Source: Burkholderiales bacterium
Lineage (GTDB): Bacteria > Pseudomonadota > Gammaproteobacteria > Burkholderiales > SG8-39
Length of the DNA stretch: 50,008 bases
Direction of reading: 5' to 3'
NCBI GenBank assembly: GCA_014860355.1
Contig: JACZJV010000116.1
Coordinates: 1-50,008, forward strand
Shown here: piece after piece, positions 18,231-21,165 of the stretch
Numbering within the stretch: the first letter of the stretch is position 1
How the letters are laid out: the number at the start of each line of letters is the position of its first letter
Made by a program: the position numbers and the translations under genes
The notes under the pieces: generated by a model
Database searches by the model: none
What the model was told of the DNA's origin: nothing
What the model saw: the letters and a program-made list of their open reading frames with translations, nothing else

Positions 18231-18260
18231 AAAAAAACCCCGGGGTACGGGCCCGGGGTT
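18231..18260 (-). terminator. Rho-independent terminator of phaP
   Basis: AACCCCGGG (18236-18244) pairs with CCCGGGGTT (18252-18260). On the minus strand the stem is followed by a U run (A run 18231-18237). It ends the phaP transcript and the candidate 3' UTR RNA. Confidence 0.9.
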
Positions 18261-18322
18261 CAGGTAGCCGCGAGCTCGAACTCGGGGCTGCCGACAGCAG
18301 GGAGGAAGGAGTAGCTGCCGGC
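18231..18322 (-). ncRNA. Candidate CUCC-loop small RNA in the phaP 3' UTR
   Basis: Downstream of the phaP stop the minus-strand RNA folds into a 9-bp stem (coordinates 18314-18322 with 18290-18298, one G-U pair) whose 15-nt loop (18299-18313) contains CUCCUUCCUCCC. Next comes a smaller hairpin around CGAG/CUCG (about 18270-18283), then a Rho-independent terminator. An exposed CCUCC loop ahead of a terminator is the layout of the 'cuckoo' small RNAs of Rhodobacter, whose loops resemble the anti-Shine-Dalgarno. The RNA could be processed from the phaP mRNA. This is structure-based inference; no homology to a named RNA family is claimed. Confidence 0.5.
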
Positions 18323-18339
18323 GTTTCCTTGAAGAAAGC

Positions 18340-18900
18340 TTAGGAGGACTTCTTCTTGCCGGTTTTCTTGTCGGCCTGTTTTACCACGCGGGTGGTGGCG
18401 GCAGTAACATTTGCTTCCGCCATGTCGGTTGCCTGTTTCACCGCTTTGGTGAAGCTGTCATAGGCGGAGTTGGCTGCGGCCATGGCGGACTTAACCGCTG
18501 TTACGGCAACATCCGAACCGGCGGGCGCGTTCTGAGTCAGCTTTTCCAACAGCGTTCCGACGGTCTTGTTCATTGCGGCAGTCCTGGTCTCGGCCAGCTT
18601 CGTGACTTCGGCCTGGGTCTGGGTTGCCAATTCGTACACGCCGCGCGAATAGGCAATCGCCTTTTCCAGGGCCGGTTGGGCCGCGGCGGTGCTCAGGCTG
18701 ATGAATTCTTGCGGGTCTTTCACCGAAAGCAGCGCTTTGGATTGATTGACGCTGTCTTCGAACGCGGCTTTGGTGGTGTTGAAGTTCAGGACCGAAAGGC
18801 GCTCGAACGCGGCGAACTGGGCCTGGGCAAAGATAAACAGCGCATCGACGCCGGCTTTGTTGGTGGCTGCAAATTGTTCGGGGGTAGCATACATGTTCAT
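18340..18900 (-). CDS. phaP: Phasin (PHA granule surface protein)
   Basis: A 186-aa amphipathic helical protein of the PhaP family: it starts MNMYATPEQFAATNKAGVD, a typical betaproteobacterial phasin opening, then has long Ala-rich helices (KAAFEDSVNQSKALLSVKD, YELATQTQAEVTKLAE) and a Lys-rich tail. Phasins coat polyhydroxyalkanoate granules. An ATG two codons upstream also exists, but GGGAG is correctly spaced (7 nt) only for ATG 18900. A strong promoter with a TGCA-rich operator lies upstream and a terminator downstream. No PHA synthase is in the window. Confidence 0.92.
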   Translation of the reverse strand: MNMYATPEQFAATNKAGVDALFIFAQAQFAAFERLSVLNFNTTKAAFEDSVNQSKALLSVKDPQEFISLSTAAAQPALEKAIAYSRGVYELATQTQAEVTKLAETRTAAMNKTVGTLLEKLTQNAPAGSDVAVTAVKSAMAAANSAYDSFTKAVKQATDMAEANVTAATTRVVKQADKKTGKKKSS

Positions 18901-18970
18901 AATCATTCTCCCAAAAGGGTTATAAAAAAGTTAGTCAATTCATCTGTGCAATAACTCTGGAACCGCTGTA

Positions 18971-19020
18971 TTGCTGCACTGCACCAAAATCTATTCTACG
19001 CTCAACTTGCTGGATGTCAA
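18971..19020 (-). promoter_or_regulatory. phaP sigma70 promoter with PhaR-like operator
   Basis: On the minus strand TTGACA (19015-19020) and TAGAAT (18993-18998) are 16 bp apart, an excellent sigma70 promoter. The predicted start, near 18986, falls in the near-palindrome TTGCTGCACTGCACCAA (18971-18987). TGC/GCA-rich elements overlapping phasin promoters are bound by the PhaR repressor, which PHA granules titrate. A second TGC element, TGTTGCACAAA, lies at about 19054-19064. The promoter is well supported; PhaR identity is inferred. Confidence 0.65.
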
Positions 19021-20178: not shown

Positions 20179-20215
20179 GAAAAAGCCGATGGGGCCTTGT
20201 GGGCGCCAACGGCTT
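20179..20215 (-). terminator. Rho-independent terminator of the candidate small RNA
   Basis: On the minus strand AAGCCG (20210-20215) and CGGCTT (20183-20188) form the outer stem, with TGG/CCA pairs inside, and a UUUUU run follows (A run 20179-20184). Confidence 0.75.
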
Positions 20216-20258
20216 GAAGACGGGGTTCACAGGAGGATAAGGAGGAGTAACCCCGCGA
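20179..20258 (-). ncRNA. Candidate CUCC-loop small RNA (stand-alone)
   Basis: On the minus strand a perfect 7-bp stem, CGGGGTT with AACCCCG (20221-20227 and 20249-20255), presents a 21-nt loop containing both CUCCUCCUU and UCCUCCU. Six nucleotides of linker or fewer separate it from a Rho-independent terminator. The unit is about 80 nt. It lies 218 bp past the SH3-protein gene and contains no sensible ORF. The design matches the candidate in the phaP 3' UTR 2 kb away. The loop could pair with AGGAGG ribosome sites such as AAAGGAGGTGA of the neighbouring gene. A TACCAT hexamer just upstream could be a -10, but no good -35 is seen. Confidence 0.5.
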
Positions 20259-20475: not shown

Positions 20476-21165
20476 CTATCGGTGATCAAAGCGCGGTGTA
20501 GGGACGGACCTCGTGCGTGGCATGCTTCGCTCACCTGCCCCCCTCTGGGCTGGCCGCGGATTGACCCCTGCATTCGCGGGCCGCTGGAAGGGGCCAAAAG
20601 CAGGCAGGGAACTCTGCGCGTTTCTCTGGCGTGGACCGGCTTGCAGCGGCCTCGGTTTGGCGGCTGCATTAGGTTGCCATTGCGGGGATCGGTAAGCTGG
20701 CGCCGAATGCCGCGCTCCAGCCGAGTGTGCCCCGCCTCGTGGCGGTCCTGCATGGATAGCTGCACGCGGCGGCCGGTGATTCCATCGCGGCATCTGCCGG
20801 TACCAAGGGTGGCGGGCGTAGTGATCATGCCAGTAATTGCCTATTATGAAAGTGGCGACGCCGATACCGATGGCGGCGCCATAGTCGAGCACGGGAACAT
20901 ATTGCCCCTGGTAGGAATAGACGATGTCACGCGCATATACCCAGCCCCTGTGCGGTCCCGCAATGACATCGCACCAGCTGTAATCTTGCATGCAACCCTG
21001 AACAGTCACCGGGAAACCAGTTCCCAGGATCGCCACTACTGGATAATCTTCGGCGGGCCCGGCATGCAGTGGGACCGCCTCGGTGGTATAAGCCACCTGG
21101 GCATTTGCCGTGACCGGAAGGAGCAGCGTCGACGCGGCAAAAACCAGCGCTTTCAGATTGCTCAT
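20476..21165 (-). CDS. Exported bacterial SH3-domain protein
   Basis: A 229-aa protein with a cleavable signal peptide (TANAQ). Residues about 25-85 form a bacterial SH3 domain: TTEAVPLHAGPAEDYPVVA, GTGFPVTVQGC, then SWCDVIAGPHRGWVYARDI. A short hydrophobic segment (AAIGIGVATFIIGNYW) follows, then a long low-complexity Pro/Arg/Gln/Ala tail of about 110 residues. SH3b proteins often bind peptidoglycan or other wall polymers. The ribosome site AAAGGAGGTGA is nearly a perfect anti-16S match before ATG 21165. Function unknown. Confidence 0.8.
   Translation of the reverse strand: MSNLKALVFAASTLLLPVTANAQVAYTTEAVPLHAGPAEDYPVVAILGTGFPVTVQGCMQDYSWCDVIAGPHRGWVYARDIVYSYQGQYVPVLDYGAAIGIGVATFIIGNYWHDHYARHPWYRQMPRWNHRPPRAAIHAGPPRGGAHSAGARHSAPAYRSPQWQPNAAAKPRPLQAGPRQRNAQSSLPAFGPFQRPANAGVNPRPAQRGAGERSMPRTRSVPTPRFDHR

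Follow-up and report, generated by a model that had tools for sequence, protein, structure and literature searches.

Within the window, by which we mean the whole 50,008-nt stretch of DNA analysed here, a phaP-like phasin gene encoding 188 amino acids (positions 18340–18906, minus strand) is followed by a structured 3′ untranslated region (UTR). The predicted protein matches Phasin_2 (PF09361, E 6.6e-26), which confirms the earlier placement of the structured region behind a phasin gene. The phasin stop codon ends at position 18340, 17 nt ahead of the first hairpin, and the intervening A/U-rich leader (GCUUUCUUCAAGGAAAC, 18323–18339, minus strand) is a candidate processing site. The hairpin itself (18290–18322, minus strand), delimited by sequence, fold and family conservation, has a 9-bp stem and a 15-nt loop and reads, from 18322 to 18290, as the stem arm GCCGGCAGC, the loop UACUCCUUCCUCCCU and the stem arm GCUGUCGGC. 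By sequence and fold the loop (18299–18313) presents CUCC/CCUCCC anti-Shine–Dalgarno (anti-SD) motifs. Folding further gives an imperfect second hairpin (18266–18289, minus strand), which is seen in the window's genus, and an intrinsic terminator (18231–18261, minus strand) with a stem of 10 pairs between 18261 and 18235 and a U run after it; the elements read in other genera consist of a hairpin plus terminator. The first-pass annotation had described this same order of 9-bp stem with CUCC loop, second hairpin and terminator, and sequence and fold bear it out. The complete 92-nt element folds at −48.2 kcal/mol (z −5.5), a stability reached by none of 200 shuffled sequences. No promoter-like site was found directly upstream of the element, so that a discrete RNA would depend on processing. 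A pattern search of the window's assembly did not find the 16S 3′ tail.

The host gene is preceded by a sigma-70-like promoter (TTGACA-16-TAGAAT, 18993–19020, minus strand) with 11 of 12 consensus matches, and by TTGGTGCAGTGCAGCAA (18971–18987, minus strand; position read from the sequence), a putative operator-like site that we take to resemble the operator of the PHA repressor PhaR. Repeats of the TTG(T/G)TGCA type are targets of this repressor. TTGACA was found in all 12 phaP copies read from the window's genus and TTG[T/G]TGCA, 79–85 nt upstream of the phasin match, in the same 12 of 12, giving every copy both motifs near the expected transcription start. If PhaR does control phaP, synthesis of the RNA would start with the onset of storage.

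Phasin searches of 14 genomes of the genus returned, from 10 of them, 12 close copies whose 3′ end could be read, and the three-part element with an anti-SD loop is present in 11 of these. The closest named public records are Burkholderiales or Betaproteobacteria metagenome assemblies. A common loop in the genus is UUCUCCUCCUCCUUU, in place of which the window copy has UACUCCUUCCUCCCU. In a second phasin copy of the window's own genome (L002) the stop codon and the element lie about 100 nt further apart, and a very similar leader has moved along with the element. The one exception among the 12 is L006, in which the position of the hairpin is kept and the CUCC loop is lost; of the orthologues it is the one nearest to the window copy (phasin 89% identical and sister to it in the phasin tree). 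This loss suggests that the window paralogue, which has diverged in sequence, may be decaying. In the genus alignment 95.8% of cells are paired and four pairs show changes on both sides, the sequences being by themselves too alike to prove more. Large palindromes lie past the element in L012 and L014 (approximately 2350–2420) and give sub-threshold microRNA matches on both strands; they perhaps represent a repeat family.

A search of 98 family genomes with model R1 found strong copies only in the window's genus (12 places, E up to 3.3e-12). Weaker matches occur in other genera, and 12 of the 13 that were read (L116–L128) lie directly behind phasins, with quite unlike stems enclosing a CCUCC-type loop. 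Eight weak order-wide matches of R1 were also read (L136–L143); no phasin open reading frame (ORF) was seen upstream of them, and a CCUCCUCC loop hairpin was seen in none except L140, which looks like RF02278. Because the weak matches in the family lay mostly behind phasins, the close phasins of the 98 genomes were then collected, and 105 phasin 3′ ends were obtained, 89 of them close (at least 43% identity) and 16 distant. The motif (CCUCCUCC, CCTCCTCC) or its window variant occurs between −12 and +110 of the stop codon in 36 of the 89 close phasins. In 100 dinucleotide shuffles the count averaged 0.83 and never exceeded 4 of 89, and 28 eight-letter motifs of the same composition, a set that includes CCTCCTCC with its 35, averaged 2.5 of 89. 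It is present in 10 of 24 genera. Among the distant phasins a single one of 16 (L020) has the motif, in a different hairpin. The comparison of phaP 3′ UTRs in related betaproteobacteria that was proposed at the outset thus found the loop conserved. In genus g6, L199 and L203 are without the eight-letter motif, and L203 has a hairpin with a CTCCTCC loop further down, at +107.

The position of the motif within the fold is as distinctive as its frequency. In 34 of 37 carriers (L002 included) it lies inside a loop closed by at least 6 pairs, compared with 66 of 740 shuffled flanks, a control made necessary by the automatic hairpin extraction, which selects sequences that fold; the three carriers in which the extraction gave no hairpin (L007, L198 and L201) stand outside the 34 analysed for stems. 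Over 25 distinct stems the inner 7 pairs are 96.6% paired, whereas swapping the 3′ arms lowers this to a mean of 47.7% and a maximum of 61.5%. The inner 5′ arms share 37% identity between ten genera, and 375 of the 382 loop nucleotides in these 25 stems are C or U (98%). Stems that differ between genera and still pair, around loops that are almost entirely C and U, are as expected of a selected loop. RNAalifold, applied to 22 hairpin-plus-terminator sequences (19 behind phasins and 3 stand-alone), found changes on both sides in 10 of 11 pairs. Chance or composition as the source of the motif is ruled out by the shuffles together with the loop-placement control. The first-pass annotation had named a loop lost while its flanks are kept as the pattern that would speak against a regulatory RNA; family-wide the reverse is seen, with the loop kept and the stems not, although L006 has lost its loop and 53 of the 89 close phasins are without the motif at −12 to +110.

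On the phasin tree (88 rows, leaving out L235, the one close phasin whose slice began with a stop codon), a branch with 100/100 support separates a side on which 37 of 48 phasins have the motif, and 11 do not, from a side on which it occurs in 0 of 40. At least 9 changes are needed to place the motif on this tree, and its history fits, without proving, one gain followed by several losses. In three phasins of genus g10 (L122, L211 and L214) the stop codon of the gene forms part of the hairpin stem, and a ribosome that translates to the end of the gene should therefore melt the hairpin.

Relatives of the loop RNA also occur away from phasins. In the window's own genome CTCCTCCTCC is found 25 times, against 23 for the backward-read pattern; with almost no genome-wide excess, the motif alone is no marker, and loop placement plus a terminator is. 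Of 21 distinct CTCCTCCTCC places in this genome, three further ones form the loop of a hairpin that has a terminator behind it, and no phasin was seen beside them. A model built across genera (R2), which includes these three places, has matches in 14 of 14 genomes of the genus with best E values of 6.6e-7 or lower, although phaP copies account for some of the best matches and those in the window's own genome arise partly by construction. The whole-genome search with R2 returned neither of that genome's own phaP copies, while the window copy scored 25.1 bits when the window was searched alone. Among 30 loci read, a stand-alone type with arms GCGGGGUUUC and GGAAUCCCG around the loop UCCUCCUCCUCCUUU and a terminator behind them accounts for 15 loci in 13 of the 14 genomes; it is well conserved, and is represented by L336 (G000:C48:60951-61024, minus strand) and 14 similar loci. 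A TANNAT hexamer (TACTAT, TAGTAT, TATTAT and the like) starts 12 nt before the stand-alone hairpin in all 15, which argues that this RNA probably has its own promoter. Two of these loci, when scanned, scored 31.6–33.6 bits against the ar14 family, which is sub-threshold. Within the window, R2 also matches a second, weaker anti-SD-loop hairpin with a terminator at 20180–20255 (minus strand; 23.0 bits, E 6.4e-5). This hairpin sits about 220 nt behind an SH3-domain ORF (20476–21165, minus strand), gave no Rfam match up to E 1, and appears to be a degenerate relative of S1, the genus's stand-alone RNA. The occurrence of anti-SD-loop RNAs both in phaP and outside it indicates that they form a set in this genus, one branch of which is built into phaP.

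Outside the family, phasin 3′ UTRs carry an element of another kind. Of 80 named phasin loci 70 were classified, the other ten (L026–L035) belonging to the window's genus and being already counted; two of the 70 (L036 and L037) are family loci counted elsewhere, which leaves 68 that are titled mostly as Comamonadaceae, Limnohabitans, Polaromonas, Hydrogenophaga and other Burkholderiales. In 34 of these 68 (for example L040, L049, L085 and L087) the phasin 3′ UTR contains UUGUCUCCU, here called the UGUCUCC element; the UUGUCUCCU start is present in all 34, and a run of at least 5 T follows within about 95 nt in all but L060 and L084. Among the 70 classified loci the loop detector was positive in five besides L036, which we read as chance or as overlap with the UGUCUCC element. 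At the gathering score, 0 of 12 UGUCUCC loci scanned matched RF02278, and in a permissive scan of nine such loci four matched it at 27.5–30.9 bits (threshold 50). The UGUCUCC element is thus a different architecture from the loop hairpin, with a similar exposed anti-SD sequence. The records of L036, L045 and L046 are titled Bordetella parapertussis, Akkermansia and Singulisphaera; their phasins are like those of environmental Burkholderiales, the DNA of L036 is identical to that of a family genome, and the three titles look wrong.

Taken as a whole, the feature is real, its loop is conserved over one clade, and it is best explained as a phasin-borne anti-SD RNA. On balance we favour the reading that the phaP 3′ UTR carries an anti-SD RNA module that would repress other genes as the phasin is made. 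In this model phaP would be transcribed from its own sigma-70-type promoter, a PhaR-type repressor probably releasing it when storage polymer is made, and transcription would stop at position 18231. We infer that cleavage within the A/U-rich leader, for which RNase E is the probable enzyme and in which Hfq is possibly involved, then frees the 3′ end, or that this end is active while still attached. The C/U-rich loop would pair with the purine-rich Shine–Dalgarno (SD) sequences of target messages and block the entry of ribosomes, and phasin synthesis would thereby lower the translation of a set of other genes. Many related bacteria keep the tip of the hairpin while its remainder changes, and the hairpin is on this ground probably a regulatory RNA that is produced along with the phasin.

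Several other explanations have to be weighed against this one. The hairpin might act in cis alone, stabilising or insulating the 3′ end of an abundant mRNA with no trans-acting RNA involved. Its strong fold, its place directly ahead of the terminator of a gene that is expected to be highly expressed, and the failure to find a promoter of its own would all suit such a role, but a stabiliser needs a stem rather than particular loop letters, whereas in this element the stem sequence has drifted around a retained loop. Similar loops are also present outside phaP, and we consider this explanation unlikely. We give rather less credence to autoregulation, in which the SD sequence of phaP itself would be the pairing partner of the loop, whether in cis or in trans, and phasin synthesis would be limited. 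That sequence is GGAGA in 10 of the 12 genus copies, most of whose loops contain UCUCC, and in the window copy an SD of GGGAGA accompanies a loop with CUCCC; the match, however, extends over only about 5 nt, and since any CUCC loop fits any GGAG, and the window's GGGAGA itself contains GGAGA, the correspondence is no real covariation test. Instead of blocking ribosome binding, the loop might serve as a protein-bound decoy or act as a sponge on a purine-rich regulatory RNA, given that a C/U-rich loop would suit these roles too and that carbon-starvation circuits include known RNA sponges (PMC12559287). We regard this as improbable, there being no known partner and the CCUCC core being the anti-SD core. 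Least credible is that UCC repeats, runs of which can expand by slippage as well, landed in loops by chance and without function, for although loop lengths often differ by three and CTCCTCCTCC is hardly over-represented in the window's own genome, the position of the motif and its retention across the clade are far above shuffles and the loop-placement control disfavours this explanation.

If the phasin-borne RNA does repress in trans, phasin messages that carry anti-SD RNAs across a clade would couple translational control directly to the storage of polyhydroxyalkanoates. More tentatively, and as a possibility to which we give less weight than to repression by the loop module itself, phasin messages of Burkholderiales may be dual-function, their 3′ UTRs having been fitted repeatedly with anti-SD RNAs of two architectures (the C/U loop hairpin in one clade, and the UGUCUCC double hairpin in Comamonadaceae and their kin), such that the onset of storage would release a broad translational repressor. 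The signature of a fixed loop and a free stem can find more such RNAs, as the stand-alone relatives in the genus show.

Among known RNA families, none reached its gathering score in the whole window or in 20 named loci, and scans at permissive settings matched the elements below threshold only. The first-pass annotation proposed a cuckoo-type small RNA and a covariance search with the CcsR/cuckoo families, and this search speaks against membership: ar14 (RF02344, cuckoo) scored 21.9 bits on the window, 37.0 on L002 and 35.5 on L036 against a gathering score of 58.8, and CcsR1 (RF02791) gave a partial match of 15.1 bits on L002 against a threshold of 65.3. The likeness that does hold lies in the architecture. 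The alpha-r14 RNAs are described as being defined by an anti-SD loop motif on highly different stems, and one of them, NfeR1, silences ntrB by acting on the ribosome binding site of that message (PMC10746234). The elements found here likewise carry a CCUCCUCC-type motif (CUCCUUCCUCCC in the window copy) in loops whose stems differ. However, the alpha-r14 RNAs have three hairpins, each with the motif, and are alphaproteobacterial, whereas the window element and the other elements printed have one motif loop and the phasin element is betaproteobacterial. CcsR1–4 are described as co-transcribed with a protein gene, ending in a terminator and excised by RNase E (PMC10746234, PMC10253847), the cut being made in the transcript of ccaF1, a DUF1127 gene (PMC10253847); the adjacent upstream gene of the window element is instead a Phasin_2 gene.

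A second comparison is with RF02278, the Betaproteobacteria toxic small RNA, whose members are NcS27, NcS03, NcS05 and NcS62, with bdhR1 and S17 related to it and placed near it (PMC11722255). These RNAs are betaproteobacterial too, with a terminator, unpaired CU-rich segments that by prediction mask ribosome binding sites, and predicted targets in carbon metabolism (PMC5688073, PMC11722255). The Burkholderia double-hairpin RNAs are predicted to silence their targets at ribosome binding sites, and overexpression of NcS27 is described as slowing growth while silencing of NcS27 does the opposite (PMC5688073). The window element, however, scores 16.6 bits against a gathering threshold of 50, and we rejected the possibility that it is RF02278 itself: the window's own genome has an above-threshold RF02278 RNA on another contig (C120), and tblastn with the window phasin gave a phasin at 0 of 58 RF02278 loci, searched over about 1.5 kb on each side where the contig allows. 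A shared layout is seen in RF02837 (anti-hemB, or Burkholderia RNA 7; ncS04), whose model consists, like the phasin element, of a hairpin with a UCUCCUCC loop, a second hairpin and a terminator; on the 11 loop-keeping elements of the genus it scored 23.7–36.0 bits (25.2 on the window, best 36.0 on L014), all below 49.5. The NmsR sibling RNAs of Neisseria are, by their description, similar in being betaproteobacterial and in having unpaired CU-rich segments that are complementary to ribosome binding sites (PMC5688073), but they are tandem stand-alone genes and do not lie in a phasin 3′ UTR. MmgR of Sinorhizobium is described as lowering phasin levels (PMC8401924), the opposite direction to an RNA borne by the phasin message.

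A literature search of partial coverage showed, among the titles listed, none on an RNA in a phasin 3′ UTR, and the cited papers describe anti-SD-loop RNAs either as genes of their own or as placed downstream of DUF1127 genes, from which the location in a phasin mRNA differs. By the tests made the phasin element is not a member of the cuckoo family, nor does it share the DUF1127 host; in its loop motif and its highly different stems it resembles these RNAs, and it probably acts like one.
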